DNA from: Corynebacterium stationis
GTDB taxonomy: Bacteria; Actinomycetota; Actinomycetes; Mycobacteriales; Mycobacteriaceae
Reading direction: 5' to 3'
Assembly (NCBI RefSeq): GCF_001941345.1
Contig: NZ_CP009251.1
Coordinates: 62,001 to 126,000, forward strand
DNA length: 64,000 bases
Shown here: positions 1,491 through 37,871 of the stretch, piece by piece
How the letters are laid out: each line of letters opens with the position of its first letter
How positions within the stretch are numbered: the stretch's first letter is position 1
Position numbers and translations under genes: made by a program
Notes under the pieces: model-generated
Databases searched by the model: none
Told to the model about the DNA's origin: nothing
The model's input: the letters and a program-made list of their open reading frames with translations, nothing else

Positions 1491-3668
1491 TCAGCCGTCG
1501 GTCGGAGCCAGGTGAGCCGGGTCCAGGTCGATCCGGCGTAGCAGCTGGGCGTTGAGGGCGACGATGATCGTGGACAGGGACATCAAGATCGCGCCCACGG
1601 CCGGGGACAGCACGAACCCGATCGGGGCGAGCACTCCGGCGGCCAGGGGAACGGCGAGGATGTTGTAGCCAGAGGCCCAGACCAGGTTCTGGACCATCTT
1701 GCGGTAGCTGGCATGGGAGAGCTCGATCATCGACAGCACGGCCCTGGGATCATCACTGGCCAGGACCACCCCGGCGGACTCCATCGCCACATCTGTACCC
1801 GCGCCAATCGCAATACCGACCTCGGCCCGGGCCAGGGCCGGGGCGTCATTGACACCGTCGCCGACCATGGCCACGCTCAGACCGCGCTCCTGCAGCTGGG
1901 TGACCTTGGTGTCCTTGTCCTGCGGCAGAACCTCGGCGAAGACCTCATCGATCCCCAGATCCTTGCCCACTGCCTGGGCGACCTGGGTGGCGTCACCGGT
2001 GATCATCGCCACCTTCACCCCGCGGGCCTGCAGGGCGCGCACCGCCGCGCGGGATTCGGGGCGGATCTTGTCCTCGACGGCCACGGCACCGATGATCTCA
2101 CCGTCGCGGACGACGTGGAGCACTCCGGCGCCTCGCTGCGTCCAGGAACCGGTGATGTCGGTGAGCTCACCCGGGATGGTCAGACTGAATTCGCGCAACA
2201 TGTTCGGCCCACCCACGAGGATTTGGGTGCCATCGACAGTGGCCCGGATCCCGCGGCCGGAGGCGGCGGTGAAACCGGTTGCGCGCAGTGGGCGGCGTGA
2301 GGCCTCCGGGTGTGCGGCCGCGGCAGCCACGATCGCCCGGGCCACGGGATGCTCGCTATCGGCCTCGGCGGCGGCGGCCAGGGACAGCAGCTCGCCCTCG
2401 GTAATGCCGTCGGCAGCCATGATGTCGGTGACGGCGTGTGCGCCTTCGGTCAGGGTGCCGGTCTTATCAAACAAGACCACGTCGATGGTGCGCATCCGCT
2501 CTAGGGCCAACCGGTCCTTGATGAGCACCCCGGATTTCGCGGCCCGCTCGGTGGAGATCGCGATGACCAGGGGGATGGCCAGGCCCAGGGCGTGCGGACA
2601 GGCGATGATCAGCACGGTCACCGCGCGGACCACGGCATCATCGGGGCTGCCGATGATGGTCCAGACCACGGCGGTGATCAGGGCCGCGATCAGGGCGAAC
2701 CAGAACAGGAAGGCTGCGGCTCGATCGGCCAGGGCCTGGGCCCGGGAGGAGGAGGCCTGGGCATCGGCGACCATGCGCTGGATGCCTGCCAGGGCGGTGT
2801 CCCCACCGGTGGCCTCCACCCGGACCCGGACGGTGTTGTCGGTGGCCACGGTGCCGGCCACCACGGTCTCACCGGTATCCCGGAAGACGGGGCGGGATTC
2901 GCCGGTGATCATGGCCTCATCGAATTCGGCCGCTCCGTCGATGATGGTCCCGTCGGCCGGGACGCGGGCACCGGCTCGGACCAGCACGACATCGTCGACG
3001 GCTAGCTCTGAGATCGCTACGGTGCGGGTGGTCCCGTCGACGACCTTCTCGGCCTCATCGGGCAGGAGCTCTGCCAGCGCGTCAAGCGCGGAGGAGGCTC
3101 CACCAAGAGCGCGCATCTCCAGCCAGTGGCCCAGCAGCATGATGGTCACCAGCAGGGCCAGTTCCCACCAGAAATCTAGGTGGAACCCGCCCAGCCCCAG
3201 GGTGGTGACCCAGGAGGCGATAAACGCCACGGTGATCGCCATGGCGATCAGGAGCATCATGGCCGGTTGGCGGGATTTCAGCTCGGACATTGCGCCCTTG
3301 AGGAAGGGGGTGCCGCCGTAGAGGAAGATGATCGTGCCCAGGACCGGAGGAATCCAGTAGGCTCCCGGAATCTCCGGAATATTATATCCCAGCAGGTCGG
3401 CGAACATCGGGCTGAAGAACACCACCGGAACCGACAGGATCAGCGACCACCAGAAGCGGTCCCGGAACATCGCGGCGCTGTGGCCGGCGTGTTCACCGTG
3501 ATCGTGGACCTGGTGTTCTTCATCGACAGTGGAATGCGGATGATCGTGCGGCATGGCCTGGTCGTGGGTGGCGGCATCCGCATGGTGCTCGTGACCGGCA
3601 TGATTCGGGTGGTGGGTGTGGTCTGTTTCCGGAGCGGGGTGATCACCGTGGTGGTGGGGAGTGCTCAT
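1491..3668 (-). CDS. copB: Copper-exporting P1B-type ATPase (CopB type, copy 1)
   Basis: Membrane ATPase that exports copper from the cytoplasm. The start at 3668 follows AAAGGAA; an in-frame start at 3686 has no such site. The N-terminal 70 residues are rich in His and Asp, as in CopB rather than an HMA domain. Counted from 3668, TGES is near residues 255-258, the transmembrane metal-site motif CPH at 357-359, the phosphorylation motif DKTGT at 401-405, and GDGVNDAP near 600. CPH rather than CPC is typical of the CopB subgroup. Its partner HMA protein and a copper operator lie just upstream. A close paralogue is at 35628-37715. Length (725 aa) is normal. Confidence 0.95.
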   Translation of the reverse strand: MSTPHHHGDHPAPETDHTHHPNHAGHEHHADAATHDQAMPHDHPHSTVDEEHQVHDHGEHAGHSAAMFRDRFWWSLILSVPVVFFSPMFADLLGYNIPEIPGAYWIPPVLGTIIFLYGGTPFLKGAMSELKSRQPAMMLLIAMAITVAFIASWVTTLGLGGFHLDFWWELALLVTIMLLGHWLEMRALGGASSALDALAELLPDEAEKVVDGTTRTVAISELAVDDVVLVRAGARVPADGTIIDGAAEFDEAMITGESRPVFRDTGETVVAGTVATDNTVRVRVEATGGDTALAGIQRMVADAQASSSRAQALADRAAAFLFWFALIAALITAVVWTIIGSPDDAVVRAVTVLIIACPHALGLAIPLVIAISTERAAKSGVLIKDRLALERMRTIDVVLFDKTGTLTEGAHAVTDIMAADGITEGELLSLAAAAEADSEHPVARAIVAAAAAHPEASRRPLRATGFTAASGRGIRATVDGTQILVGGPNMLREFSLTIPGELTDITGSWTQRGAGVLHVVRDGEIIGAVAVEDKIRPESRAAVRALQARGVKVAMITGDATQVAQAVGKDLGIDEVFAEVLPQDKDTKVTQLQERGLSVAMVGDGVNDAPALARAEVGIAIGAGTDVAMESAGVVLASDDPRAVLSMIELSHASYRKMVQNLVWASGYNILAVPLAAGVLAPIGFVLSPAVGAILMSLSTIIVALNAQLLRRIDLDPAHLAPTDG

Positions 3669-3718
3669 GAGGTTCCTTTCGCTCAACCCGGTCGGGGTCG
3701 AGATGATGGGCGAATCGA

Positions 3719-4051
3719 TCAGGACAAGACGGTGTAGCCGGTCTCCTCAATCGCCCGGTGGACGGTTTCCACGGGCACGGAACCCGTGACCGTGACGATG
3801 GAGACCCCACCGGCGATGAGGTCGACCTGGACGTCGTCGACTTGGGGCAGAGCGCTCACCGCCTCGGTGACATTGCCGGCGCAGTGTCCGCAGGTCATGC
3901 CTGTGACCTGGTAGGTGGTGGGACCTTCAGGTGTTGCGTCGGTTGCCGCGGCCACGGCCGGGGCGGAGACGGTCGCGGACGGCGTAGAGGGCGCGCAGCA
4001 TCCACAACCGTCGGAGGCCAGCGGCAGCAAGGGGGAAGTTGGGGTGGTCAT
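3719..4051 (-). CDS. Heavy-metal-associated (HMA) copper-binding protein, CopZ-like
   Basis: A 110-residue protein with a single C-terminal HMA domain. The metal site is GMTCGHC, followed by the typical ending IEETGYTV. The N-terminal 40 residues form an Ala/Thr-rich extension containing GCGCC, unusual for CopZ and possibly a second thiol site. It presumably carries Cu(I) to CopB, encoded 50 bp downstream on the same strand. The start follows AGGAGAG. A CsoR-like palindrome lies 53 bp upstream of the start, so the pair is probably copper-inducible. Confidence 0.88.
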   Translation of the reverse strand: MTTPTSPLLPLASDGCGCCAPSTPSATVSAPAVAAATDATPEGPTTYQVTGMTCGHCAGNVTEAVSALPQVDDVQVDLIAGGVSIVTVTGSVPVETVHRAIEETGYTVLS

Positions 4052-4161: not shown

Positions 4162-5310
4162 TTATTGTCCCCGGGAGTGGGGGTCACTGAGCATCAGGGA
4201 CACGTTTTCCTGGTGCAGGGGAAGACGGATGGTGAAGACCGATCCGGCACCGGGGCCAGGAGAGGTGGCGGTGAGAGTGCCGCCGTGGGCCTCGATCAAT
4301 GCCTTGGAGATGGTCAGACCGATACCGGCCCCGCCGTTGTCCCGGCTGCGGGCGGCATCCCCCCGGTAGAAGCGTTCGAAGATGTGTCCGAGCTGGCCAG
4401 GTGGGATGCCCTCGCCGTCATCGGCGACGTGGATGAGCGCGGTGGACGCCCCCTGTCGGTGGACGCTGATCCGGACCTGCCCGCCGGCCGGGGTGTGCCG
4501 TAGCGCGTTCGACAGGAGATTGCTCATCACCTGGCCGAAGCGTTGCCGGTCCACGAGCACCCGGGCGGTGTCCGTAATGGTCTCGACCTGTAAAACGACG
4601 CCTTTGTCAGCATAAGCTTCCCCCGCGGCAGCAGCGGCGATATGGAGCAGATCCCCGAGCCCTTCCTCCGCCAGGTCCAAATCGATCCGGTGTTCCTGGG
4701 CCCGGGAGACATCGTCGATGTCTTCCATCAACCGGGTCAGGCGGGTGAGTTGGTCAGCCATGATCGTGTGGGTGGCATTATTCCAGTCCACGACCCCGTC
4801 CTGGAGACCATCGAGGTAGACCGTGAGCACCGATAAGGGGGTGCCCATTTCGTGGGCCAGATCAGAGAGCATCTGGCGGCGGACCTGTTCGGTGTGTTCC
4901 AGCCGGTCGGCCATGGTGTTGAAGGCATGCGCCAGGGTGGTGACCTCGGGGCCTGCTTCTCCGACGGACACGCGGATACGGTAGTTGCCGGCCGTCAGGC
5001 TGGTAGCGGCGCGGGTGAGATCCTGCAGGGGGGTGCGCAGGCGACGCGATAACCACAGGCTGGCCAGCAGGGCGCTGATCAAGGCGGTGGGCAGGGCGAC
5101 GGCCAGGGTGATCAGGTTGGCGTCCCGGTAGGCCTGCTCGGCATGGAACAGATCCAGCGAGGGGTCCTCCCGGCCGGTCATCAACATATGATCATGGAAC
5201 AGGGTCGGGCCCACCACCGTGGCCACGGCCGCGGCCACCAGCAGGCTAATCACCACGACCAACACCTGGGCGGCCAGGAAGCGGAAGGTCAGGCCGGGTC
5301 CGTGATTCAT
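4162..5310 (-). CDS. copS: Copper-sensing histidine kinase
   Basis: Membrane sensor kinase of a two-component system, 382 residues. TM1 spans about residues 10-35 and TM2 about 63-88, enclosing a short extracytoplasmic loop with several His and Met (FHDHMLM). A HAMP linker follows. The phosphoacceptor H-box is SDLAHE with His153. The ATPase domain shows N-box NLLSNALRHTP, G1 DDGEGIPP with the F-box IFERFYRG, and G2 GAGIGLTI. It overlaps copR by 4 bp (ATGA), so the two are co-translated. Position and gene order match the CopRS locus of Corynebacterium glutamicum; copper as signal is inferred from that. Confidence 0.88.
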   Translation of the reverse strand: MNHGPGLTFRFLAAQVLVVVISLLVAAAVATVVGPTLFHDHMLMTGREDPSLDLFHAEQAYRDANLITLAVALPTALISALLASLWLSRRLRTPLQDLTRAATSLTAGNYRIRVSVGEAGPEVTTLAHAFNTMADRLEHTEQVRRQMLSDLAHEMGTPLSVLTVYLDGLQDGVVDWNNATHTIMADQLTRLTRLMEDIDDVSRAQEHRIDLDLAEEGLGDLLHIAAAAAGEAYADKGVVLQVETITDTARVLVDRQRFGQVMSNLLSNALRHTPAGGQVRISVHRQGASTALIHVADDGEGIPPGQLGHIFERFYRGDAARSRDNGGAGIGLTISKALIEAHGGTLTATSPGPGAGSVFTIRLPLHQENVSLMLSDPHSRGQ

Positions 5311-6029
5311 GGCTGCCCCACCCGGTAGCCCACGCCACGCACGGTGTCGATAAACCCCCGGCCCCGGGTGTCGGTGCCGAGCTTGCGACGCAAGTTGCCG
5401 ATGTGGACATCGACGATGCGTTCATCACCGACCCAGGTGGTGTCCCAGACCTCGGTGACCAGGTCGTGGCGGGTCAGCACCTGGCCGGGGCGCAGGGCCA
5501 GGGCAACCAGCAGCTCGAACTCCGTGCGGGTGAGCTCCACGGTCGTCTCCCCCACCCGCACCTGATGGGCGACGGGGTCAAGGATGAGGTCACCAACGAT
5601 CAAGGGGGTGGTCACCTGCGGTGGGGTGGTGCTGGTGCGCGGGCGGCGCAGCACCGCATGCACCCGGGTCACCAGTTCCCGGATGCTAAAAGGTTTGGTG
5701 ATGTAGTCATCCGCCCCCAGGGTCAAACCGCTGATCTTGTCGTCCTCGCTGCCACGCGCGGTGAGCATGAGGATGTAGCAGTCCGAGAAGGTGCGGATCC
5801 GTCGGCACACCTCAAGGCCGTCGAGTTCGGGCAGTCCCAGATCCAGCACCACAACATCGGGGGAAAAGCGACGGGCCTCGTCCACGGCCTGGGTGCCGGT
5901 GTGCGCCTGGCGGGTATCGAAGCCGGCCCGGATGAGGTAGGAGGCCACCATCTGAGCCAGGGGTTGTTCATCATCGACGACCAGCACCCGCCCCGGGGGC
6001 GTGGCGGTGGTCGGTGTGCGGTCAGCCAT
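5307..6029 (-). CDS. copR: Copper-responsive OmpR/PhoB-type response regulator
   Basis: DNA-binding partner of CopS, 240 residues from the start chosen here. The receiver domain begins VLVVDDEQPLAQM, with phosphoacceptor Asp in VVLDLGLPELDG and conserved Lys in ITKPFS. The winged-helix domain contains LTRTEFELLVALA and ends GVGYRVGQP. The frame stays open upstream to an ATG at 6146, but the receiver fold begins just after MADRTP at 6029; the longer reading would translate through the CopR operator. A CopR-like tandem box lies 60 bp upstream, suggesting autoregulation and control of the divergent cueP-copO genes. Confidence 0.9.
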   Translation of the reverse strand: MADRTPTTATPPGRVLVVDDEQPLAQMVASYLIRAGFDTRQAHTGTQAVDEARRFSPDVVVLDLGLPELDGLEVCRRIRTFSDCYILMLTARGSEDDKISGLTLGADDYITKPFSIRELVTRVHAVLRRPRTSTTPPQVTTPLIVGDLILDPVAHQVRVGETTVELTRTEFELLVALALRPGQVLTRHDLVTEVWDTTWVGDERIVDVHIGNLRRKLGTDTRGRGFIDTVRGVGYRVGQP

Positions 6030-6088
6030 AGACCCCAGTATCGCTCCGGCCAGGGGAGAATACCACCCTCGCTCAGCGCCCGGCGGGG

Positions 6089-6108
6089 AAACCTTCATCA
6101 AATCTTCA
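6089..6108 (-). promoter_or_regulatory. CopR box (tandem repeat) between copR and cueP
   Basis: Read on the minus strand this is TGAAGATTT, two bases, then TGAAGGTTT: a tandem 9-mer matching, with one mismatch, the motif I recall for C. glutamicum CopR (TGAAGATTT repeated with a 2-bp gap). It is the only clear regulatory sequence in the 403-bp divergent region 6030-6432; otherwise I see only an SD (AAGGAG at 6421) for cueP and no obvious small gene. Confidence 0.75.
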
Positions 6109-6432
6109 AACATCACCCTTCGACCGCCGTCACCCCCGTGCCCCACCCCGAGCCGGCGGCATCGCCTCCCCTGGTCAGTTCAGCAAGCGCCACCAGGGAT
6201 TTCACTGCCTGCACCGCATACCCGGGGCGGGTAGAAGGACATCGCCCACGGCTGTGGGGTGGTGTCCCGGTGGTGACCCAGCCCACCGGAGTCACCCCCT
6301 TTTCGCCCTGTTATAAGGCTGTGAGCAGGGTTTTTGATTTCTGGGCCGTCAGGCACCCGTGCTAGAAAAGGTATGGCATCGACCTTGAGGCGGTGTCTTC
6401 TCACGGTCTTACCACGATCCAAGGAGATTGAC

Positions 6433-7008
6433 GTGAAACGAGCAGCGATCGCAGCCGCCGCCCTTGCCCTCGCCCTCACGGGGTGTTCGGCCGCCGACCC
6501 GGAACCCACCGCCGACGGGACGGTGTCCCAGGATACATTCCTGACTACCCATGGCCTGGCCGCCATGGACGCGGTGGAGATCATTGATCACCTCGACCGG
6601 CAGAAGGTCACTGAGCGTCCCACGGATCTGATCGCCTCCGTGCGTGCCGATGAACTGCTGCTCTCGAGCGATGACCAGGAAGTCGTGGTCGATCTTCCCG
6701 ACAATCAGACGTATGTCTCGATCGCACCCTATCTCACCTCCACCCACGACTGCTTCTACCACAGCCTCACGACCTGCCTGGGGGAACTCGACAATGAGGA
6801 TATCCAGGTCACGATCACCGATGAGGAGACCGGTGAGGTGCTGGTGGACGAGGCGACAACCACCTTCGACAACGGGTTTATTGGCTTCTGGCTTCCCGAT
6901 GATGCCACCGGCCTGATTGAGGTCAGCTACCAGGGGCGTACCGGCACCACGGAGTTTTCCACCACCGACGACGGTGCCACCTGTGTCACAGACCTGCGCC
7001 TGACGTGA
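6433..7008 (+). CDS. cueP: CueP-like copper-binding lipoprotein, copy 1
   Basis: Exported copper-binding protein of the CueP family, 191 residues. The GTG start at 6433 follows AAGGAG at 6421-6426. The signal peptide ends in a lipobox LTGC with Cys18, so it is probably membrane-anchored. The mature part has exactly three further cysteines, in HDCFYHSLTTCLG (107 and 115) and near the C-terminus (GATC, about 184), the arrangement used for Cu(I) in CueP. It precedes the multicopper oxidase gene by 71 bp in the same direction. A diverged paralogue is at 37872-38486. Confidence 0.85.
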   Translation: MKRAAIAAAALALALTGCSAADPEPTADGTVSQDTFLTTHGLAAMDAVEIIDHLDRQKVTERPTDLIASVRADELLLSSDDQEVVVDLPDNQTYVSIAPYLTSTHDCFYHSLTTCLGELDNEDIQVTITDEETGEVLVDEATTTFDNGFIGFWLPDDATGLIEVSYQGRTGTTEFSTTDDGATCVTDLRLT

Positions 7009-7079
7009 TGGCTCAGCAGGGTCCTCACCTGCGCCTGTCTCCCGTGTCACTGAAATCTTGCACCAAGGAAGGTTAAATC

Positions 7080-8588
7080 ATGACGAACGCGTTTTCCCGA
7101 CGACAGCTTCTGCTCGGCGGGCTCGTCCTCGCCAGCACCGGGGCCGTGGCCGCCTGCACCAGCGACCCTGGACCCGCTGCCTCGGCACCAGGTCCCTCCC
7201 TTCGCCCCACTCCCACCCCCACTGCGCTCGGTGAGCCGACGGTGCGCCGAACACTGACCGCCCGGCCCCTCTCTCTGGATATCGGCGGCATCGAAGCCAA
7301 GACGTGGGGATACGTCTCTGACACCGGGGATGCGGCCATTGAGGCCACCGCCGGCGACGTCCTCCAGGTCGATATCACCAATGAACTGCCTGAGAGCACC
7401 TCCATCCACTGGCATGGCATCGCACTCCACAACGCAGCCGACGGTGTGCCCGGCATGACCCAGGACCCCATTGAACCTGGCGAGTCTTTCTCCTATGTTT
7501 TTGAAGTCCCCCACGGTGGCACCTACTTCTACCATTCCCACACCGGCCTGCAGCTTGATCGCGGCCTCCACGCCCCACTGATCATCCGTGACCCGCAAGA
7601 CGCTGAGGACCAGGACGTCGAGTGGACCATCGTGCTCGACGACTGGCTGGACGGCATCGACGGCAGCAGTCCCGAAGATCAGCTGACTATGTTGACGGGG
7701 ATGGACATGGGTGGCCACGGAAACATGGACATGGGTGGCCACGGCGGGATGGATATGGGTGGTGAGGGGGGCATGATGGCCCACGGCACGCCCGATCCGG
7801 CTCTGGGCGGAGATGCCGGTGATGTCATGTATCCGCACTACCTCATCAACGGACGCATTCCCCGGGCGCACCGAACGTTTAATGCCCGACCGGGGGATAA
7901 AGCCCGCCTGAGGTTCATCAACGCGGGCGCTGACACCATCTTCAAGGTGGCTCTCGGTGGCCACCGCATGACCGTCACCCACGTCGACGGTTTCCCGGTC
8001 CTTCCCCACGACATCGAGTCGTTCTACCTCTCGATGGGTGAGCGTGTCGACGTGGAGGTGGTACTCGGTGATGGTGTCTTTCCCCTGACCGCCCTGGCCG
8101 CCGGCAAGGACGACCGGGCGTTTGCCGTCATCCGGACCGCCGCGGGCCAGACCCCCGCACCAGAGACTACCTTCCCCGAACTCACTGCCCCCGGTACCTT
8201 CTTGACGTCCTTTGAGCCGGCGGAACGAGCCCTGCTCCCGGCCGGTGACGTGGATAAGGAAACAGAGGTCAAATTAACCGGCCAGATGATGCCCTACCAG
8301 TGGGGACTGCGCATCGACGGTGCTGATTCCCCGGGCACAGTCCAAGAAGGCCAACGCCTGCGGATGCGGATGCACAACCCCACGGCCATGCCCCATCCGA
8401 TGCACCTGCACGGGCATACCTGGGCTCTTCCCGGAAGTAGCGGCCTGCGCAAGGACACTGTCCTCATTCTCCCCGGCGAAACGGTGGACGCGGACTTGAT
8501 CGCCGACAACCCCGGTGAGTGGGCGTTTCACTGCCACAACGCTTATCACCAGGAAACCGGGATGATGAGTTCCCTGCGGTACGCCTAA
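7080..8588 (+). CDS. copO: Multicopper oxidase, Tat-exported lipoprotein
   Basis: Cell-surface cuprous oxidase expected to convert Cu(I) to Cu(II), 502 residues. The signal sequence has twin arginines (SRRQLLLGG) and a lipobox ending at Cys26. Copper ligands are in all four canonical motifs: HWHG (110-113), YHSHTG (151-156), HPMHLHGH (439-446) and HCHNAYHQETGMM (484-496). Residues about 204-235 form a Met/Gly/His-rich insert with repeated GMDMGGHG, resembling the Met-rich Cu(I)-binding segments of CueO-type oxidases. SD is AAGGAAGG. It is the third gene outward from copR, matching copO placement in C. glutamicum. Confidence 0.92.
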   Translation: MTNAFSRRQLLLGGLVLASTGAVAACTSDPGPAASAPGPSLRPTPTPTALGEPTVRRTLTARPLSLDIGGIEAKTWGYVSDTGDAAIEATAGDVLQVDITNELPESTSIHWHGIALHNAADGVPGMTQDPIEPGESFSYVFEVPHGGTYFYHSHTGLQLDRGLHAPLIIRDPQDAEDQDVEWTIVLDDWLDGIDGSSPEDQLTMLTGMDMGGHGNMDMGGHGGMDMGGEGGMMAHGTPDPALGGDAGDVMYPHYLINGRIPRAHRTFNARPGDKARLRFINAGADTIFKVALGGHRMTVTHVDGFPVLPHDIESFYLSMGERVDVEVVLGDGVFPLTALAAGKDDRAFAVIRTAAGQTPAPETTFPELTAPGTFLTSFEPAERALLPAGDVDKETEVKLTGQMMPYQWGLRIDGADSPGTVQEGQRLRMRMHNPTAMPHPMHLHGHTWALPGSSGLRKDTVLILPGETVDADLIADNPGEWAFHCHNAYHQETGMMSSLRYA

Positions 8589-8737
8589 CCCCACAGCAGG
8601 GTTGAGTGCCGAGGTGGGCAGAGTCGCTGCAGACCACCCACCGGGCAGCACGATGACCTTCCTCGGTGTTGTGGTCTTCCGGGACAACCAGAACACCGTC
8701 TTCTTCCCCACCGCCCCGGAATAAGGAGATCTAATCC

Positions 8738-9352
8738 ATGCCGAGCACACCCCGCAGAGCCGCCACAGCGGTTGCCGCGGTGCTCACCGCCGTGACCCTG
8801 ACGGCCTGTTCCTCAGGCGACGGCGCCCGAAACGCCGTCGCCGTCGGGGGCACCTTCCAGTTCCACTCACCAGGAGGCCAAACCGAGATTATCTACGCAG
8901 AGGAGGAACGTGCCCCGCTGCCGGACTTCTCCGGCCCGTCGCTGATGGAGGAGGGTGAGGAGATCAGCCTGTCTGATTTTGAAGGCGAGGTCGTCGTCCT
9001 CAACGCTTGGGGCCAGTGGTGTGCACCGTGTCGGGCGGAAGTCGATGACCTGCAGCTTGTCCAGGAGACTCTCGACCCCCTCGGTGGCACGGTGCTGGGC
9101 ATCAACGTCCGTGACTACAACCAGACCATCGCCCAGGACTTCAAACTCGACAACGGTGTGACCTACCCGTCAATCTACGACCCGCCGTTTCGTACCGCCG
9201 CGGACCTGGGAGGGGTACCGACCTCGGTCATCCCGACCACGATCATCCTGGACAAGCAGCACCGCCCCGCAGCGGTGTTCCTCCGGGAGGTCGACGCCGA
9301 GGACGTCCTCGACGTCGCCCTCCCACTGGCTAAGGAGGCACCAGCACCATGA
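8738..9352 (+). CDS. TlpA/ResA-like thioredoxin-fold lipoprotein
   Basis: Extracytoplasmic thiol-disulfide reductase, 204 residues. The signal peptide ends in lipobox LTAC (Cys24). The thioredoxin-fold domain starts near residue 60 and has the active site WCAPC with Cys95 and Cys98. A cis-Pro-type segment follows at VIPTTIILD. It overlaps ccdA by 4 bp (ATGA), so it probably receives electrons from CcdA to keep cytochrome c haem-binding cysteines, or copper-binding thiols, reduced. SD is AAGGAG. The upstream 149-bp gap from copO shows no gene I can support. Confidence 0.9.
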
Positions 9353-10164
9353 CCGTTGATGTGATGGCACAGCTGGCGATCGGCCAGCAGTTCGCTGACG
9401 TTGCGGCCACCGGGCCGCTGCTGATCGGCATCCTCGCTGCTGCTGCCGCTGGCCTCGTCTCGTTTGCCTCCCCGTGTGTGGTCCCGCTGGTCCCTGGTTA
9501 TATGTCGTATCTGGCCAGTGTGGTCGGCGGCGAGGTCAGCTATGACTCCGAACACGGCTCCGTGGTGACCAAAAAACGCCAGTGGGCCGTGGCCGGTGCC
9601 GCCGGGTTGTTCATCCTTGGCTTCACGGTCGTCTTCGTGTTGGCCACGGTCACCGTCTTCGGGGCGATCAGCATGCTCACGCTCAATGCCGAGGCCCTGA
9701 TGCGCATCGGTGGGGTGACCACCATCCTCATGGGGCTGACGTTCATGGGCATGGTCCCTGCCCTGCAGCGTGATACCCGCATGGCTCCGAAGAAGTGGTC
9801 CACCTGGCTGGGAGCCCCACTGTTAGGCGGGGTCTTCGCTCTGGGATGGACCCCGTGTCTGGGGCCCACGCTCGCGGCGATCATCTCTGTCTCGGCTGGC
9901 ACCGAGGGTATGACCGCCGTGCGTGGGGTCATCCTCATCCTCGGCTACTGCCTGGGCCTGGGACTGCCGTTTTTGCTCATGGCCTTCGGCTCGGCGCGCG
10001 CAATGCGCACCGTCGGCTGGCTGCGCCGCCACTCACGCAAGATCCAGATGTTCGGCGGGGTGCTCATGGTCGCCGTCGGCATTGCCCTGGCCAGCGGGGC
10101 GTGGGCGTACTTCATCAACTGGGTACGCCAGTGGACCGTCGAATATGGCGCCACCTTGATCTAA
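9349..10164 (+). CDS. ccdA: Cytochrome c biogenesis transmembrane thiol transporter CcdA
   Basis: Polytopic membrane protein of the DsbD/CcdA family, 271 residues, that passes electrons from cytoplasmic thioredoxin to extracytoplasmic thioredoxin-like proteins. About six membrane segments are visible. The two redox cysteines lie in [12 protein letters not shown] (Cys43) and [12 protein letters not shown], the hallmark pair. It is translationally coupled to the TlpA-like gene upstream and followed by resB. The C-terminal helix ends in GAWAYFINW. Confidence 0.93.
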
Positions 10165-10168
10165 CACC

Positions 10169-10190
10169 TGACCGGTCACCCCACCGGTCA
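10169..10190. repeat. Intercistronic hairpin between ccdA and resB
   Basis: TGACCGGT, a 6-base loop, then ACCGGTCA form a perfect 8-bp stem immediately after the ccdA stop. No T-tract follows, so it is more likely an RNA stability or attenuation element than a simple terminator. Confidence 0.5.
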
Positions 10191-10260
10191 CACCGACTTA
10201 ATCCCCATCCCTGCAGCCGTTACCGCTCGGTGCCGGCTGGGGTCTGGAAGAGGAACACTC

Positions 10261-11940
10261 ATGACCACCCTGATGCGCACCCTATGGACGTATCCGAAGA
10301 AGGCCTGGCACTGGCTGACCAGCATGCGCACCGCGCTAGTCCTGCTGTTCGTCCTCGCCATCGCAGCGATCCCTGGCACCATATTGCCCCAGCGCAGCCT
10401 CAATCAAGGCAACGTCGCCGACTACATCGCCAACAACGGCCGCCTAGCGGAAATCTACGACCAACTGCAGCTGTTCGACGTCTTCGAATCCACCTGGTTC
10501 AATTCCATTTTCATGCTGCTGACCATCTCCCTGGTCGGCTGTATCCTGCCACGCTCCTGGGACCACTACCAGGCGATGAAAACCCCACCGACCCGGGCAC
10601 CGAAAAGCCTGGCCCGGTTGCCATTACATGCCACCGGCATGATCGACAAGCCGATATCAGAGGTCACCGCACATGCTCACCGACGACTGAAGAGATGGAA
10701 GGTCGCCGAGTATCAGCCGAACCAGGACCGGGCAGGGGTGTTTTCCCTCGCCGCGGAGCGTGGTTATACCCGGGAGCTGGCTAACCTCCTATTCCATCTT
10801 TCGCTGGTGGGCATGCTCGTCACGATCGCCGCCGGTCGGATGGTCTACTACGAGGGCATGGTCATCATCGTCACCGAATCCGGTAACTACGAGACCCCGC
10901 CGATCGAACAGAGCACCGAGTTCTGCAATACCTCCACCGCCAACTTCGATTCGTTCCGGGCTGGCCCGACCTTCGACGGCACGGGACTGACCACGTTTTG
11001 CTTCGACGCCCACGACTTTTCCGCCGACTACCTGCCCAATGGCCAGGCGGAGATGTTTACCTCCAATATCTCCTATGCCATCGGCGACGACATCCTCACA
11101 CCGAAGGAGGAGTGGACCGACTACCAATTGCAGGTCAACCACCCGCTGCGGGTGGCCGGCGACCGGATCTATCTGATGGGCCACGGATATGCCCCCACCT
11201 TCACGGTGACCTGGCCCAACGGTGAAACCCGCACGCAGACCCTGCAATTCGGCCCCGAAGATCCGACCTTCTTCCTGTCCTCTGGTGCGATGCGGTTTGA
11301 CCCACCGGCCGGGATGTATCCCGATCTCTTTGAACGCCGGCAAAACCAAATCGCGCTGGAGGGACTCTTTGCCCCCACCGCCGAGTGGGGCGGGGACAAC
11401 GGTCAACTGCTGACCTCGTCGTATCCGGCGATGCGGGATCCGGCCGTGGCCATTGACATCTACCGCGGTGACGCTGGCCTCGACACCGGCCGTGCCCAGT
11501 CCATCTTCGAACTCGACGACACGCTGATTGCCAACGGACAGCTGCAACGAATCGAACGCGTCAACCTTCAACAGGGGGAGGAGGTAACCCTGGATGACGG
11601 TACGACCGTCACCTTTGACGGGGCCAGCGAGTTCGCCAATTACCAGATCAGCCACGACCCCTTCCAACCGTGGGTGCTGGTGACCACCGTGATCATGCTC
11701 GCCTCTCTCATCGGCTCTCTGGTCATCAAGCGCCGGCGTATCTGGATCCGTCTGCAGCCTTCCGCTGATGGCACCGCAACCGTCGTAGAGATAGCCGGCC
11801 TAGCCCGGACTGACCGGGCTGGCTGGGGCAGCGAGTTCGATGACATCCACCGTGAGTTGCTCGGGCTGCCCGACCCCGACGACATCGATGAGGACGCCGA
11901 GGAGGCTACCCCAGTGTCGGTTACCCACCCCAGTCAGTAA
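10261..11940 (+). CDS. resB: Cytochrome c maturation protein ResB (Ccs1)
   Basis: System II cytochrome c synthetase subunit, 559 residues. Three membrane segments lie near the N-terminus (TALVLLFVLAIAAIPGTILP, the FMLLTISLVGCIL segment, and LLFHLSLVGMLVTIAAG), then a large extracytoplasmic domain, then a final segment (VLVTTVIMLASLIGSL) near residue 475 and a cytoplasmic tail rich in acidic residues. This is the family's usual layout. SD GAGGA precedes the ATG. With CcsB it ligates haem to apocytochrome c outside the membrane. No c-type cytochrome gene (CXXCH protein) was found in the window. Confidence 0.92.
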   Translation: MTTLMRTLWTYPKKAWHWLTSMRTALVLLFVLAIAAIPGTILPQRSLNQGNVADYIANNGRLAEIYDQLQLFDVFESTWFNSIFMLLTISLVGCILPRSWDHYQAMKTPPTRAPKSLARLPLHATGMIDKPISEVTAHAHRRLKRWKVAEYQPNQDRAGVFSLAAERGYTRELANLLFHLSLVGMLVTIAAGRMVYYEGMVIIVTESGNYETPPIEQSTEFCNTSTANFDSFRAGPTFDGTGLTTFCFDAHDFSADYLPNGQAEMFTSNISYAIGDDILTPKEEWTDYQLQVNHPLRVAGDRIYLMGHGYAPTFTVTWPNGETRTQTLQFGPEDPTFFLSSGAMRFDPPAGMYPDLFERRQNQIALEGLFAPTAEWGGDNGQLLTSSYPAMRDPAVAIDIYRGDAGLDTGRAQSIFELDDTLIANGQLQRIERVNLQQGEEVTLDDGTTVTFDGASEFANYQISHDPFQPWVLVTTVIMLASLIGSLVIKRRRIWIRLQPSADGTATVVEIAGLARTDRAGWGSEFDDIHRELLGLPDPDDIDEDAEEATPVSVTHPSQ

Positions 11941-11973
11941 TACCCACCTTCAATTCTAAGGAATCGTGCCCTC

Positions 11974-13005
11974 ATGCCTGTCAATCAGACTCTCTCCGCC
12001 TTCTCTGATATTGCCTTCCAGACCGCGTTCGTGGTCTACCTGCTCGCCCTGGTGCTCTCCCTGATCTTCTACGTGAAGATGCAGGGGGTCATCGACGCCC
12101 GACGGCTGCGCGAACATATCGCAGAACCCGAACGTGTCGCCGTGCGCACCGGCGCCAGCACCACTGACCTCACTGACAGTCCCGATGAGGATACTGCCGC
12201 CGCAGACACCCCACTCACCGATGAACACTTCGCGGCCAAAGAATCCTCCGCCCACAAATTCGGCGGAATGACCCAAGCCCTGGTGTGGGTCGGTGCGGCC
12301 ATCCACCTCATGTCTGTGGTCCTGCGCGGTCTAGCCACCTACCGCTTCCCGCTGGGAAATATGTACGAATACATCTCCATGATCTGCGTGCTGGCGATGA
12401 TCGCCGCCGCGATCGTCATTCAACACCGCGAATGGCGCAGCGTCTGGCCCTGGCTGCTGGTCCCCATCCTCGTCCTGCTGTTCTTCGCAGGCACCAGCCT
12501 CTACTCCGACTCCGCCCCGGTCGTCCCTGCCCTACAGTCCTACTGGCTACCGGTTCACGTCTCCACCGTCTCCCTGGGCGCGGCGATTGGCATCGTCTCG
12601 GGCATCGCTTCCCTGCTTTACCTGCTGCGTATCTGGCAGCCGAAGGGTGCGGAGCGTGGCTTCTTCGGTGCTGTGGCCAAGCCGCTGCCGAGTGCGAAAA
12701 AGCTTGACGCCCTGGCCTACAAGTCCGCCATCATTACGTTGCCCGTGCTGGGGTTGGGCATTGTTCTGGGTGCGATCTGGGCGGAGGTCTCGTGGGGCCG
12801 GTTTTGGGGATGGGATCCGAAGGAGACCGCATCCTTTATCTCCTGGGTGCTCTATGCCGCCTACCTGCATGCCCGTGCCACGGCCGGGTGGCGCGACCAC
12901 AAGGCCGCGTGGATCAATATCCTGGCCCTGGCCACGGTAATCTTCAACCTGTTTTTCATCAACCTGGTCGTCTCCGGCCTGCACTCCTACGCCGGCCTGA
13001 ACTAA
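11974..13005 (+). CDS. ccsB: Cytochrome c synthetase subunit with WWD domain (CcsB/CcsA/ResC)
   Basis: Haem-handling membrane partner of ResB, 343 residues. The tryptophan-rich WWD signature WGRFWGWDPKETASF lies near residues 268-282, followed by the conserved SWVLYAAYLHARAT stretch. About eight membrane segments are visible, with an N-terminal helix and a charged linker (TGASTTDLTDSPDEDT) before the core. SD AAGGAA. It follows resB by 33 bp and probably shares its transcript. Confidence 0.92.
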   Translation: MPVNQTLSAFSDIAFQTAFVVYLLALVLSLIFYVKMQGVIDARRLREHIAEPERVAVRTGASTTDLTDSPDEDTAAADTPLTDEHFAAKESSAHKFGGMTQALVWVGAAIHLMSVVLRGLATYRFPLGNMYEYISMICVLAMIAAAIVIQHREWRSVWPWLLVPILVLLFFAGTSLYSDSAPVVPALQSYWLPVHVSTVSLGAAIGIVSGIASLLYLLRIWQPKGAERGFFGAVAKPLPSAKKLDALAYKSAIITLPVLGLGIVLGAIWAEVSWGRFWGWDPKETASFISWVLYAAYLHARATAGWRDHKAAWINILALATVIFNLFFINLVVSGLHSYAGLN

Positions 13006-13139
13006 ATCCGGATTCGTCAACGCTTTGCCGAACACCCCCAGATCCACTGGGAAAGTACTGAAAGTTGCTGTCACATGACTCGAAGGATTGGGCATATATT
13101 CACAACTGAGCAGCAACCCGAAGAAGGCCGTGATCTCCG

Positions 13140-14705
13140 GTGAAGGCTAGTACTGCAGCAGACGTGACAGTCTCACGTCTTTCCCGGGGGATAGCCGGCG
13201 ATAACTGGCGCAGATTGGCCGGTCCCACCGCGCTCATGATGGGAGCTGCGGTGGTCTGGTGGCTGGCGCTGCCGCCACGCGGTTGGTGGGTGCTGTTCCC
13301 GGTGGGCGTGACTATGTTCATGCTGGCTTTGGCAGGTCAACCACTACGTAACCGTTTGTGGCTCGGTGGGTTGGGCGGGGTGGTGCACTACGCTCTTGCT
13401 CTGCGCTGGCTCACCGACTTCAACACTGCCGGATACGCTGCTGTTGTTGCCGTTCAGGCGCTACTGTTAATGCTGGTTGCCGCGGTATCGCCTAACGAGG
13501 CGGCTTTTCGCAGCCGCTGGTCGGGCTGGTGGCTGCTCACCCCTGCTGCCCTGGTGTTATTGGAGGCTGTGCAGCACCGGTTCCCGTTCGGCGGTTTCCC
13601 GCTGTCCGCTTTCGGATACAGCCAGACCGATGGTCCTTTCATGGCGGCAGCGCCCCTGGGTGGGACTCTCCTGGTGACCGCGTTGGCCGCAGTTGCGGGG
13701 GCCGTTGTTACCGCTGTCATCTTCGGGCCGAGACGAGCCCGTGCAGCATCCGTGGTCGCAGTGGTCGTGGTACTCGCGGTACCGGCGTTCGCGCCAACGA
13801 TCGTAGATGATACGGCAGAAGGCAGCCTTGACGTCGTGCTCGTGCAGGGTGGAGGCCCCCGCGGTCTTCGCGCGGTCAATACCGATCCGTTTGATACGAC
13901 CCGCCGGCACCTACAGGCTGCCGAAGATATCACCGGGGACCCTGATCTGGTTCTGCTGCCCGAAAACGTCGTCAATATCGACGGCTCAATCGACGGGACG
14001 CGCGTTGATGCAGCTTTCGCTGAACTGGCCAGGCAACTCGACACGAACATCGTTGTCGGAATTACCGAATCCGAGGATCAACATTTCCGGAACGCATCCA
14101 TAGTGTGGGGACCGGACGGGACCCGGTTAGGACGCTATGAGAAGCATCATCGTGTGCCGTTCGGCGAGTACATCCCTATGCGCAATCTGATTGAACGACT
14201 CAGCGAGGACGCACGGTTCATCCCCCGCGACGCCATTGCCGGAGAGGGACCGGCGGTGCTCGATCCCAGCGGGACACCACGATTGGGGATCGTCATTTCT
14301 TATGAGGTCTTCTTCGCCGACCGGGTCGCCGATGCCGTTCGCAATGGTGGGCAGCTACTCCTCGCACCGACCAACGCCGCGTCTTTTGTGACCGAGGAAG
14401 TACCTGCAATTGAAGTGGCCGCATCCCGGATGCGTGCCCGCGAGTTTGGCCGCACCGTTCTCCAGGCTGCCCCCACCGGATACTCCGCAGTTATCCAGCC
14501 CGACGGCACAGTCTCACAACTCAGTGGCCTGGGCACGAACGAACTGCTGACGGCAACCGTTCCCCTTCATACTGGTTTGACGCCGTATGCGCGCATGGGG
14601 GATACGCCCCTGTTGGTTCTCGCGATGCTGGCTCTTGCATGGCCTGCGGTTACCGGCCTCGTCAGCTGGCGCAGGAGAAGGCAGGTTACGGAAGTATCCC
14701 ACTAA
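13140..14705 (+). CDS. Apolipoprotein N-acyltransferase homologue (Lnt/CutE) with Ser in place of catalytic Cys
   Basis: Membrane enzyme of the Lnt family, 521 residues from the GTG start. The N-terminal half has about six membrane segments; the C-terminal half is a carbon-nitrogen hydrolase domain. The catalytic triad of Lnt is Glu-Lys-Cys. Here Glu275 (LLPEN) and Lys335 (RYEKHHRVPFGEY) are present, but the motif usually read ICYE is ISYE, with Ser387 from a TCT codon. Lnt adds the third acyl chain to lipoproteins; this copy may be altered or inactive. It is the last gene of the copper/cytochrome block, which encodes three lipoproteins. SD weak. No ppm-type glycosyltransferase neighbour, unlike the usual corynebacterial lnt. 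Confidence 0.85.
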   Translation: MKASTAADVTVSRLSRGIAGDNWRRLAGPTALMMGAAVVWWLALPPRGWWVLFPVGVTMFMLALAGQPLRNRLWLGGLGGVVHYALALRWLTDFNTAGYAAVVAVQALLLMLVAAVSPNEAAFRSRWSGWWLLTPAALVLLEAVQHRFPFGGFPLSAFGYSQTDGPFMAAAPLGGTLLVTALAAVAGAVVTAVIFGPRRARAASVVAVVVVLAVPAFAPTIVDDTAEGSLDVVLVQGGGPRGLRAVNTDPFDTTRRHLQAAEDITGDPDLVLLPENVVNIDGSIDGTRVDAAFAELARQLDTNIVVGITESEDQHFRNASIVWGPDGTRLGRYEKHHRVPFGEYIPMRNLIERLSEDARFIPRDAIAGEGPAVLDPSGTPRLGIVISYEVFFADRVADAVRNGGQLLLAPTNAASFVTEEVPAIEVAASRMRAREFGRTVLQAAPTGYSAVIQPDGTVSQLSGLGTNELLTATVPLHTGLTPYARMGDTPLLVLAMLALAWPAVTGLVSWRRRRQVTEVSH

Positions 14706-14935
14706 ACGTGGATTACGGCACCTGCTCCTCGTTGGCGGGACGCTCGCCGCCCCCATATATGACGAGCACGGACTGCCTCCCCTGTGCCCCGGTCTGCCCT
14801 GCCTGGAGAAGCTATCAAGTCCGGGTTGTGTCGGCGATGAGTGAGAAGCGTCTCTGCGGTCTGAGGCGGGTGCCTCACACCCAGTCACTGCCGCCGGTTC
14901 CGGTGTCGGGGCCGGTCCTGGTGAGTGCGGGAAGG

Positions 14936-15688
14936 TTAGAAGGTGACGCCGTGCTCGGCGAACCAGGGCAACGGGTCGACCGCCCCGCTGCCAGTCGGGT
15001 AAAGCTCGAAGTGCAGGTGAGAGCCGGTGGAAACCCCCTGGTTGCCCATGCCAGCGATCCTCTGACCAGCGGTGACGCGTTCCCCAACGGTCACGTCGAG
15101 AGTCTCCATATGACCGTAGACGGCAATCGAGCCATCATCGTGCTGGATGCGGATCCACTGCCCGAAACCGGAGGCCGGGCCGGAGTCGATGACAGTGCCG
15201 CCCATCGCCGCGAGGATCGGGGTGCCCACGACGTTGGCGATGTCGATACCCGCGTGGAGGGTTCCCCAGCGCACGCCGAAACCGGAGGTGAAGGTGCCTT
15301 CAGCGGGCTTGACCACCGAGGGCGCGCGGGCAGCGCGCTCGTTCTCGGCCCGCTCGGCGTTGTACTGGATGGCCTTGTCCAGCTGCTCGTCGATGTTGGC
15401 GACCGGCTTGAATTCGGAGATAGCGAGAATCTGCGGTGCGGCCTGCGTCCCACTCGAGGACAGGGCCGTGTCGTTGGTGGCCAAATCCACCTCGACGGTG
15501 GCAGCCTCCGGGGAGACCGGAGCCTCGACCTCGGCCGGGGCTTGCAAGGTGGCGGCCGTGGCGCCACCGACGCCGGCGGATGAGACCGTGCCGGCGGCTA
15601 CAGCCACGAGGGCGAGACGCCCCTTGGTCTGCGAGGTGGTGATCGTGCGGTGTCTTCCTCCGGATGACCGCGAAGCCTTCAGGCGCAT
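14936..15688 (-). CDS. Secreted M23-family peptidoglycan endopeptidase
   Basis: LytM-like metallopeptidase, 250 residues. An N-terminal basic segment and Ala-rich hydrophobic stretch form a signal sequence. The catalytic domain occupies about residues 125-245: zinc ligands are in HAGIDIA and in SHLHFEL, with GYGH-like VYGHMETL between. A coiled segment around residues 80-115 precedes it. The enzyme would cut peptide crosslinks in the wall. An inverted repeat lies 73 bp upstream of its start. A 30-bp piece of this gene (15248-15277) is duplicated in inverse orientation at 15868-15897. The 230-bp gap downstream to lnt shows nothing clear. Confidence 0.88.
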   Translation of the reverse strand: MRLKASRSSGGRHRTITTSQTKGRLALVAVAAGTVSSAGVGGATAATLQAPAEVEAPVSPEAATVEVDLATNDTALSSSGTQAAPQILAISEFKPVANIDEQLDKAIQYNAERAENERAARAPSVVKPAEGTFTSGFGVRWGTLHAGIDIANVVGTPILAAMGGTVIDSGPASGFGQWIRIQHDDGSIAVYGHMETLDVTVGERVTAGQRIAGMGNQGVSTGSHLHFELYPTGSGAVDPLPWFAEHGVTF

Positions 15689-15760
15689 GACTCTTCTTCC
15701 GTCGTTGTCCGTTGTCCCGCCCTGAGCAATTCCAGCGATATGTCCGTTGGAGATCAGACC

Positions 15761-15790
15761 GTTACCGTTCCGTTATCTAACGGAGGTAAC
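15761..15790. promoter_or_regulatory. Inverted repeat upstream of M23 peptidase gene
   Basis: GTTACC, three bases, CCGTTA, two bases, TAACGG, one base, GGTAAC: nested inverted halves 73-102 bp before the peptidase start. The GTTACC/GGTAAC halves resemble GTAAC-type elements of envelope-stress regulators such as MtrA, but spacing differs; assignment is tentative. Confidence 0.4.
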
Positions 15791-15867
15791 ACTAACGCCT
15801 GAACTCCTCCGATGTCCACCTTGCGGCCCCTTTAGTGATCTTCTCCACACTGTCCCCAGCTCCCACC

Positions 15868-15897
15868 GGCGTGCGCTGGGGAACCCTCCACGCGGGT
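15868..15897. repeat. 30-bp inverted duplicate of M23 gene sequence at a transposase junction
   Basis: Thirty bases here are identical to the reverse complement of 15248-15277, which encodes GVRWGTLHAG in the M23 peptidase. Similarity stops on both sides. The copy is fused in frame to the 3' part of an IS5-type transposase, marking a recombination junction. Confidence 0.85.
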
Positions 15898-16582
15898 CTA
15901 CGCCCTGTTTCGTGCCTGGCAACTATCCGGCACCTGGGCACAGATCGAAGCCGCCCTTCAGTCCCGAGCCGATGGCCAGGGACAACTCGGATGGGACATC
16001 TCCGTGGACTCGACTACCAGCCGGGCGCATATCCACGCCGCCGGAGCGCGGCGAGATTCCTCCGACCGCCTCGACGGCGAACCGGACAACCATGCCCTCG
16101 GCCGGTCTCGGGGCGGGTTCTCCACCAAGATTCATCTGGCCTGTGACCAGCATCTACAGGCGGTGTCGTTCACGCTGACCGCCGGGCAGGCCGGTGACAG
16201 CCCGCAGCTGACCGAAGTCCTGGACCGGATTCGGGTGGCCCGCCCCGGGCCCGGTCGGCCCCGCAGTCTGCCGGATCGGGTGCTGGCGGACAAGGCCTAC
16301 TCCTCACAGGCGAACCGGTCGTACCTGCGGTGCCGGAAGATCACCACCACGATCCCGGTCAAAAAGGACCAGGCCGACAACCGTCAGGCCAAAGGGTCTG
16401 CCGGTGGGCGGCCACCGGCCTTCGACTCTGAGGCGTATAAGGGTCGCAACGTCGTCGAACGCTGCTTCAACGCGCTCAAACACAACCGCGGGGTGGCCAC
16501 CCGATACGACAAACTCGCCGTCCGGTTCGAGGCAGTCATCCGGGTCGCGAACATTGACCGCTGGCTCAAACGACTTTCATAA
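15890..16582 (+). pseudogene. IS5-family transposase, 5'-truncated
   Basis: One frame reads VYALFRAWQLSGTWAQIEAA, then VDSTTSRAHIHAAG with the first catalytic Asp, then VLADKAYSS with the second, and ends in the DDE glutamate region GRNVVERCFNALKHNRGVAT. This is the C-terminal three quarters of an IS5/IS427-type DDE transposase. The N-terminal helix-turn-helix part is missing and the upstream codons come from the duplicated M23 fragment. The first ATG inside (16004) lies within the catalytic domain, so a functional product is unlikely. The right IS end is probably near 16590 (AACAGGTCCT). Confidence 0.85.
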
Positions 16583-18247: not shown

Positions 18248-18295
18248 CGCTGCTCCTGTCAACTCTTGGCTTTCTGCTCTGTCTCAGCCATACTG

Positions 18296-18321
18296 GACCT
18301 TCCAGTGCAGGGGAAGGTCAA
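18296..18321 (-). promoter_or_regulatory. MerR-type operator and merA promoter
   Basis: GACCTTCC and GGAAGGTC form a perfect 8-bp dyad with an 8-bp spacer (18296-18319). On the minus strand the -35 TTGACC (18316-18321) is separated by about 20 bp from CAGTAT, the overlong spacing that MerR proteins correct by untwisting. The promoter therefore points to merA. Confidence 0.8.
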
Positions 18322-18345
18322 GCGCGGCCACGGAGGGAGACAGCA

Positions 18346-35570: not shown

Positions 35571-35627
35571 GTGAAACCTTTCTGAGGTTGAGAAAATTAT
35601 GGTTTAGAAAGCTTTATCATCAAGCGT

Positions 35628-37715: not shown

Positions 37716-37796
37716 GTCACTTCTTCTCTCAATTTTTAGGATTCTAGGAAACCGAGATATGGCGGAGATAGATATTTAAGCGCTATGAACAACGGT

Positions 37797-37813
37797 ATAC
37801 CCCGAGAGGGTAT
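37797..37813. promoter_or_regulatory. CsoR-like copper operator between copB2 and cueP2
   Basis: ATACCCCGAGAGGGTAT matches the 4104-4120 site in its outer arms with one broken base pair. It lies in the 156-bp divergent region and could control both copB2 and cueP2. Confidence 0.6.
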
Positions 37814-37871
37814 GTTTCAAGGAAAGCTAGCTCTTTGTCGGGATAGGAGAAATGGTGCTATTAATTAGCCT

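Follow-up and report, generated by a model that had tools for sequence, protein, structure and literature searches.

Why would a copper resistance island carry a set of cytochrome c maturation genes and a homologue of the lipoprotein-modifying enzyme Lnt? The question is raised by a 64,000-nucleotide stretch of Corynebacterium stationis DNA (contig NZ_CP009251.1, positions 62,001 to 126,000; hereafter the window), in which seven genes encoding CueP, a multicopper oxidase (MCO), TlpA, CcdA, ResB, CcsB and Lnt lie at 6433-14705, all on the + strand. The last five are referred to here as the add-on block, and the four from TlpA to CcsB as the ccs set (System II of cytochrome c maturation). The answer toward which we lean is that the block would be a copper-induced backup of envelope biogenesis, covering cytochrome c maturation plus lipoprotein modification. 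Gene content, the second-copy status of the block, a CopR box, linkage to copper genes, the ccs active sites, selection, a serine substitution in Lnt and modular loss come directly from the analysis; co-transcription and copper induction of the block, as well as the two functions, that of ccs and that of Lnt, are predicted.

A second set of genes on a copper island

The host has a core ccs locus elsewhere, with another ResB at C1:413624 accompanied by TlpA, CcdA and CcsB, and a core Lnt at C1:1380213. Therefore, the island set is a second copy, and an ordinary respiratory locus is ruled out as a description of the island copies. A ResB match is present in 120 of the 121 Corynebacterium genomes; two matches below the cut-off, in G020 and G021, and pieces of ResB in the incomplete genome G092 are not part of the comparison that follows. 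The core comparison covered 52 core-type ResB genes from 52 genomes, with about 9 kb on each side (one contig was short); the core ResBs of 68 further genomes lie outside it. None of the 52 loci has a CueP, MCO or Lnt match near ResB, also at an E-value of 1e-3, whereas all seven island-type ResB copies are located behind cueP (that of the window, one each in G018, G061 and G111, two in G044 and a partial one in G116). The first-pass annotation of the window had joined the System II genes to the copper genes, and this is supported: they form a second set beside the core set and go with copper genes, and a CopR box is in place. The pattern that it named as contrary, the same genes in a respiratory context free of copper genes, is that of the core copies and not of the island copies. 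Two genomes, G043 and G068, have a divergent second ResB (L025 and L027; frames of 480 and 469 aa, with CcsB at 35% identity), and these have no copper neighbours. Within about 9 kb, 33 of the 52 core ccs loci (e.g., L018 and L040) have a P-type ATPase that is distantly related to that of the island, mostly at 24-32% identity.

The CopR box of the window, TGAAGATTTGATGAAGGTTT (6089..6108, - strand), lies 325-344 bp before the cueP start codon at 6433. It differs by one mismatch from the C. glutamicum box TGAAGATTTnnTGAAGATTT (expectation 0.01) and is the sole site in the window at three or fewer mismatches. When ten islands are aligned, the closest site ahead of cueP differs from the C. glutamicum box at 0-4 positions: none in L011 and L117, one in the window, L003, L006, L116 and L118, three in L005 and L007 and four in L015. 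In C. glutamicum the box is at -266 to -285 from the transcription start, which is itself 59 bp upstream of the cg3286 start codon (PMC3140484); by arithmetic from these figures the spacing is again 325-344 bp, equal to that of the window. According to the same source, CopR activates cg3286-copO-cg3288-tlpA, and 20 uM copper raises the mRNAs of hemL, cg0519, cg0520, ccsA and ccsB 3.6-4.6 fold. The latter are core genes at a locus separate from cop (PMC3140484), so a link between copper and System II has already been measured in the genus, and the island joins both on one piece of DNA.

The seven genes run in one direction with small gaps (71, 149, -4, 96, 33 and 134 bp from cueP to lnt, computed from the coordinates), as the first reading of the window had described; it also spoke of a fused copper, System II and Lnt block, of which the adjacency stands and the fusion does not. 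A scan of 5200-16000 found no promoter-like sites on the + strand and two terminator-like sites, within ccdA and resB (shuffled sequences give 5.3). The run is divergent from CopRS-HMA-CopB on its left, and the copper unit therefore begins left of 6433, since it includes the copper ATPase, the HMA protein, CopRS and the CopR box. These genes, all on the - strand, encode a CopB-type copper P-type ATPase (1491..3686; TIGR01511 at 580.7 bits, cut-off 397), an HMA-domain copper chaperone-like protein (3719..4051; PF00403, 3.7e-16), a CopS-like sensor kinase (4162..5310; histidine-kinase family matches, TIGR01386 under its cut-off, in the position that it has in the C. glutamicum cop region) and a CopR-like response regulator (5307..6026; OmpR-type family matches, none shown above cut-off, and a pCha1 homologue). 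The CopR-like open reading frame (ORF) is listed to 6146, and the start near 6026 is derived from the annotated 720-bp homologue of pCha1.

To the right of the box, CueP (6433..7008) is a copper-binding lipoprotein that matches PF21172 (3.3e-58) and NF038094, the narrower CueP model NF038095 being under its cut-off. The MCO (7080..8588) is CopO-like, with three Cu-oxidase domains, a Met/His-rich segment and a twin-arginine-like leader that carries a lipobox. Six of the seven cluster proteins match their family models well; the exception is CcdA. Lipobox-like N-termini in CueP (LTGC), the oxidase (VAAC) and TlpA (LTAC) make these three predicted lipoproteins.

We propose that CopR, activated by copper through CopS, would turn on two divergent operons, copRS-HMA-copB on one side and cueP-mco plus the add-on block on the other; the block would thus be co-transcribed with the copper genes and induced by copper. 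CopB would export Cu(I), and CueP and the oxidase, judging from their families, would handle Cu(I) outside the membrane. While copper is present, the block would provide a second set of envelope-biogenesis enzymes. CcdA and TlpA would carry reducing power to the outer face, ResB-CcsB would attach heme to the diheme cytochrome c of the host so that assembly of the bcc-aa3 chain can go on, and the serine-type Lnt would modify lipoproteins, of which CueP, the oxidase and TlpA are predicted examples. Possibly, this Lnt removes the free alpha-amino group that could serve as a copper ligand, or it uses a nucleophile that copper does not poison.

The ccs proteins and a serine-type Lnt

The active sites of the ccs proteins are intact. 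TlpA (8738..9352) is a TlpA/ResA-like thioredoxin lipoprotein with AhpC-TSA/Redoxin matches, and its Cys95 and Cys98 are conserved in all 25 aligned rows of island and core copies. CcdA (9349..10164), a CcdA-like electron-transfer membrane protein, has no Pfam match and a weak NCBIfam match, and was identified via synteny, 77% identity to the core copy (L012) and the annotated CcdA of pCha1 rather than by a family model; Cys43, Cys170 and Cys201 are conserved in 25/25 rows. The same is true of Cys94, Cys222, Cys247, His102 and His179 of ResB (10261..11940; PF05140, 2.5e-145). CcsB (11974..13005), the heme-handling protein, matches Cytochrom_C_asm and, above its cut-off, TIGR03144; it has the WWD-type motif WGRFWGWDPKE and retains His111, His195, His299 and His337 in every ungapped row of 24. 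A thiol-free redesign of the whole block is ruled out, because TlpA, CcdA and ResB keep their cysteines; among the catalytic residues that we looked at, only the Lnt nucleophile differs.

The block genes are under purifying selection. Between the window and the C. lemuris island (L003), the ratio of nonsynonymous to synonymous substitution (dN/dS) is 0.195 for TlpA, 0.069 for CcdA, 0.091 for ResB, 0.170 for CcsB and 0.191 for Lnt. The CopB value of L007 (paralogues were compared) and the ratios of L021 (near-zero divergence) were dropped, and the Lnt ratio between the window and L006 comes from little divergence.

In a tree of 73 taxa the seven island ResBs form one clade (support 1.0), to which five core corynebacterial ResBs are nearest (support 1.0), and none of the plasmid ResBs of other genera falls inside the corynebacterial clade (0.968). 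The Corynebacterium set and the Rhodococcus-type sets were therefore captured separately. Origin was judged from the ResB tree alone; the deep CcsB node has a support of 0.059.

The first-pass annotation saw no c-type cytochrome gene in the cluster, and this is correct: CxxCH is absent from all 12 scanned cluster proteins, and in window frames of at least 90 aa it occurs once, within a stop-to-stop frame of 104 aa that lies across lnt in another reading frame. A client is present elsewhere in the genome, where a search with PF13442, the one family searched, found one 302-aa cytochrome c frame with two CxxCH motifs (C1:998713-999261). This protein is the likely client of both ccs sets. The further suggestion that these are copper genes rather than respiration genes is doubtful, given that the Cys/His residues and the WWD-type motif are kept, that the host has a diheme cytochrome client and that the core ccs genes of C. 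glutamicum are copper-induced.

Lnt (13140..14705) has the LNT_N and CN_hydrolase domains and exceeds the TIGR00546 cut-off. Catalytic sites were assigned by sequence alignment with solved Lnt structures: Glu275, Lys335, Glu343, Tyr388 and Glu389 are kept, so that the Glu and Lys of the Glu-Lys-Cys triad are present, and the catalytic Cys is replaced by Ser387. For this reason, we file the protein as an Lnt homologue and not as Lnt. The earlier pairing with Lnt/CutE is right in that an Lnt homologue is present; the analogy with cutE needs care because the catalytic Cys is missing.

The substitution is not a peculiarity of the window. Every distinct intact island copy that was read in Corynebacterium (10 of 10, a count without those of C. 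marinum and C. comes) has serine at the site; cysteine is there in each of the 43 distinct core Lnts studied, and likewise in the six Lnts read from Rhodococcus and Gordonia plasmids. The Ser-Lnt clade is monophyletic, with a support of 0.999 (67 taxa) and of 1.0 when an additional genus is included. In an order-wide search, nine of the 249 genomes gave a match at 1e-60: the genome of the window itself, six genomes from a single other family and two with a Cys-type Lnt; five of the six have Ser, and the open frame of the sixth stops before the site. Where the contigs are long enough, the neighbours in this other family are a cupredoxin-fused P-type ATPase and SCO1 (L142), a P-type ATPase, a cation efflux protein, a TlpA-like protein, ResB and CcsB (L143), a P-type ATPase, LspA, ResB and CcsB (L144), and a TlpA-like protein and M23, with no metal gene among the scanned proteins (L145). 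An exclusive association of Ser-Lnt with metals is ruled out by a second Ser clade described below.

The conservation of the island Lnt argues against simple decay, and it may be a working serine enzyme, a changed enzyme or an inactive one. The window Lnt is 98% identical to the pCha1 copy (L006), with a synonymous divergence (dS) of 0.03, and the remaining island genes are at 70-92% identity, with dS of 0.30-0.64 where computed; a recent recombination event thus seems to have moved lnt separately from the rest.

An optional block and its rival explanations

CueP is present in 63 of the 121 genomes, at 75 places. Seventy-two were examined (G093, G092:C33 and the second CueP of the window were left out); after excluding 18 with less than 60% identity to the island CueP and three without adjoining CopRS, 51 CopRS-type loci remain. 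Six of these have a complete TlpA-CcdA-ResB-CcsB, four of them with Lnt, and four others have lost ccs and kept an intact Lnt. One locus each has a broken Lnt, a ResB cut at 40% or a contig that ends in CcdA. TlpA and CcdA are complete without ResB in two (L194 and L201), TlpA is followed by part of CcdA in three and a TlpA fragment is left in six. No trace of the block follows the MCO in 26 (three on short contigs), and one has neither MCO nor block. The deletions have left remnants: in G086, G059, G070 and G035 a piece of CcsB stands before lnt, G096 (outside the 51) has an MCO-CcsB-piece-Lnt remnant without CueP, and pLEW279b and the Rothia plasmid p1 keep only TlpA or TlpA/CcdA pieces. The add-on block is, therefore, optional in CopRS islands. 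On the C. faecale chromosome (L015), CueP is directly followed by TlpA-CcdA-ResB-CcsB, without MCO or Lnt; this genome also has a second, plasmid-borne ccs island.

Related kits are found on plasmids of other genera. In PLSDB, 94 plasmids have a ResB relative, and Lnt lies within 10 kb of ResB in at least 42 of the 60 matches listed (one place per plasmid record); NZ_CP108044, with an annotated lnt beside resB, exemplifies why this is a lower bound. Twenty-one ResB-bearing stretches, picked for diversity and not at random, were read; 15 have a clear metal or copper gene and 11 an annotated Lnt. Their recurrent company includes LspA, Lgt, M23, thioredoxin-domain/DsbA proteins with VKOR, CopC, cytochrome oxidase assembly proteins, CtaD and, once, SURF1. 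Similar kits thus recur on metal plasmids of Rhodococcus and others and, judged from the ResB tree, were captured at least twice. A Sulfitobacter faviae plasmid (L112, 5427-23038) has LspA-Lnt, DsbB, a thioredoxin-domain protein, SCO, PCu(A)C and M23, as well as four L,D-transpeptidase genes beside a P-type ATPase, with no ResB in view.

Tentatively, one may go further and imagine that metal plasmids of several lineages independently assembled kits of envelope spare parts, along with one metal-dedicated Lnt whose serine nucleophile would be active when copper hits the Cys enzyme. It is conceivable, if doubtful, that such kits consist of thiol- or metal-sensitive machinery, that is, cytochrome c synthetase, CcdA/TlpA, Dsb/VKOR, Lgt/LspA/Lnt, M23 peptidases and oxidase assembly factors. 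If so, resistance would in part be a matter of replacing the targets, and not only of metal export.

Several observations weigh against a backup of envelope biogenesis. Most islands lack the block, as the 6 complete sets and the 26 loci without a trace indicate, and so the copper genes can do without it; moreover, ccs has been deleted in islands that keep Lnt, and Lnt is missing where ccs is kept. Four of the 21 plasmid stretches have no metal gene (L107, L108, L152 and L157, with L107 and L157 resembling core loci), and two are doubtful (L103 and L158). A second clade of Ser-type Lnts, presumably of Mycobacterium, has no match to the window's other proteins at any of its five loci. An engineered E. 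coli Lnt with C387S forms the acyl-enzyme and has no detectable Lnt activity, and BCG_2279c, a natural C-to-S paralogue, did not replace Lnt (PMC3850990), so the island Lnt may not N-acylate. In E. coli, copper blocks lipoprotein maturation in a way that mimics depletion of Lgt and not of Lnt (PMC6538781). Direct poisoning of E. coli Lnt by copper was dropped as a candidate: the discussion in PMC7387801 has diacyl lipoprotein accumulating, and we follow the primary paper that it cites (PMC6538781), which has the Lgt mimicry.

The other explanations fare less well. It is unlikely that TlpA-CcdA is the functional copper part, a thiol-reducing arm for CueP and other exposed thiols with which ResB, CcsB and Lnt hitchhiked as its neighbours; the Scs proteins of Salmonella would be an arm of a similar kind. 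TlpA or a piece of it is the part most often kept after the MCO, L194 and L201 keep TlpA and CcdA complete without ResB, and the C. glutamicum cop operon has a CopR-activated tlpA without ccs (PMC3140484), all of which suits an arm of this kind. The purifying selection on ResB and CcsB between islands (0.09-0.17), their intact active sites and the separate origin of comparable plasmid sets in other genera speak against hitchhiking. We consider it quite improbable that an ordinary respiratory locus and an Lnt paralogue are passengers of a copper island on a plasmid, with a dosage effect or none at all. In favour of passengers are the absence or erosion of the block in most islands and the descent of the island ResB from a corynebacterial core locus; however, ccs and Lnt are repeatedly associated with metal genes, Lnt is near at least 42 of the 60 plasmid ResB matches listed versus none of the 52 core loci, and the clade to which the Ser-Lnt belongs has similar neighbours in other places.

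The first-pass annotation went in another direction and had ccs feed electrons to the oxidase and Lnt anchor the copper proteins, the whole being a self-contained copper-redox unit with no part in respiration. This version agrees with the adjacency of the genes and with the three predicted lipoproteins, but the modules are lost separately, the host has a diheme cytochrome c client, and we know of no role of ResB-CcsB in feeding electrons to a multicopper oxidase. We regard it as very improbable, and in its stated form, as a single unit, it is ruled out: ccs and Lnt were lost independently and 26 of the 51 loci have neither, so that 'one unit' is too strong.

A copper-induced backup thus remains the explanation toward which we lean. 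In R. gelatinosus, periplasmic copper is said to affect the assembly of cytochrome c (PMC6247083). Zn/Cd-induced LspA and CcdA genes are described for Mesorhizobium. That a copper operon may include lipoprotein modification has a precedent in Listeria, the copper-induced lit2 with lgt2; with regard to lit2-lgt2, N-acylation has been proposed to take away a copper ligand from the N-terminus of lipoproteins. The open-licence literature did not yield the combination of copper resistance, apolipoprotein N-acyltransferase and plasmid with either cytochrome c biogenesis or Rhodococcus. The usual account of copper resistance is one of export, oxidation and sequestration, and the locus suggests an addition, the backup of envelope machinery that copper may damage. 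It would connect the observation that cutE is lnt, the lit2-lgt2 operon of Listeria and the copper induction of the core ccs genes of C. glutamicum. The Ser-Lnt clade also poses a question: could the Cys-to-Ser form, which has no activity as an engineered enzyme in E. coli, be functional and copper-tolerant in nature?

The surroundings contain other metal genes. A secreted M23 peptidase gene (14936..15688, - strand; PF01551, 2.1e-29) adjoins the island in several relatives and is part of the conserved island neighbourhood. Farther right are a mercuric reductase-like pyridine nucleotide-disulphide oxidoreductase and a divergent MerR-like ORF (16826-18735), adjoined by transposase-like ORFs at 16004-16582 and 19033-19599; the copper island seems to be part of a larger mobile metal island. 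The G+C content is 0.60-0.69 across the first 20 kb of the window versus 0.49-0.59 in the remainder. A second copper cluster at 34956-38486 consists of a secreted lipoprotein-like ORF (34956-35570), a CopB-like ATPase (35628-37715, - strand) and the second CueP of the window (37872-38486, + strand); no oxidase or ccs ORFs adjoin it, and it has no CopR box at three or fewer mismatches.

Comparison with known systems

The island set resembles the core corynebacterial System II locus in its order, TlpA-CcdA-ResB-CcsB, and in its active-site residues. It differs in being an extra copy on a copper island, with a ResB clade of its own nested among the core ResBs. Its Lnt shares with Lnt/CutE the LNT_N and nitrilase domains and the active-site Glu, Lys and Glu, but has Ser for the catalytic Cys and belongs to a separate clade. 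The Cys-to-Ser change at the C387 position is also that of the BCG_2279c (Rv2262c-Rv2261c) paralogue (PMC3850990). The presumably mycobacterial Ser-Lnts, which are probably of the BCG_2279c kind, make up a clade of their own, and the other island genes are missing from their surroundings.

The lit2-lgt2 operon of Listeria and Enterococcus is similar in that a mobile copper operon adds a second lipoprotein-modifying enzyme. The likeness is one of logic only: Lit is a different, intramolecular transacylase, the excerpted accounts of the operon mention no cytochrome c genes, and no Lit-family match was found among the scanned cluster proteins.

The closest relative is the C. glutamicum cop region, cg3281-cg3289, which has the same divergent operons (copRS...copB versus CueP-like-copO-tlpA), a CopR box at equal spacing and a high G+C content, and was horizontally acquired (PMC3140484); a related cop region is on pLEW279b. 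The genes ccdA-resB-ccsB-lnt are absent from the gene list published there (PMC3140484). The C. glutamicum cop tlpA looks like the leftover of a longer block, and the tlpA of pLEW279b is 57% covered. In the locus of C. stationis, a single CopR box stands between the divergent copRS-copB and cueP-copO operons; the locus is thus a CopRS cop island of the type known from C. glutamicum, in an extended form. The short operon of C. glutamicum, in turn, is most readily understood as a truncation of the longer block.

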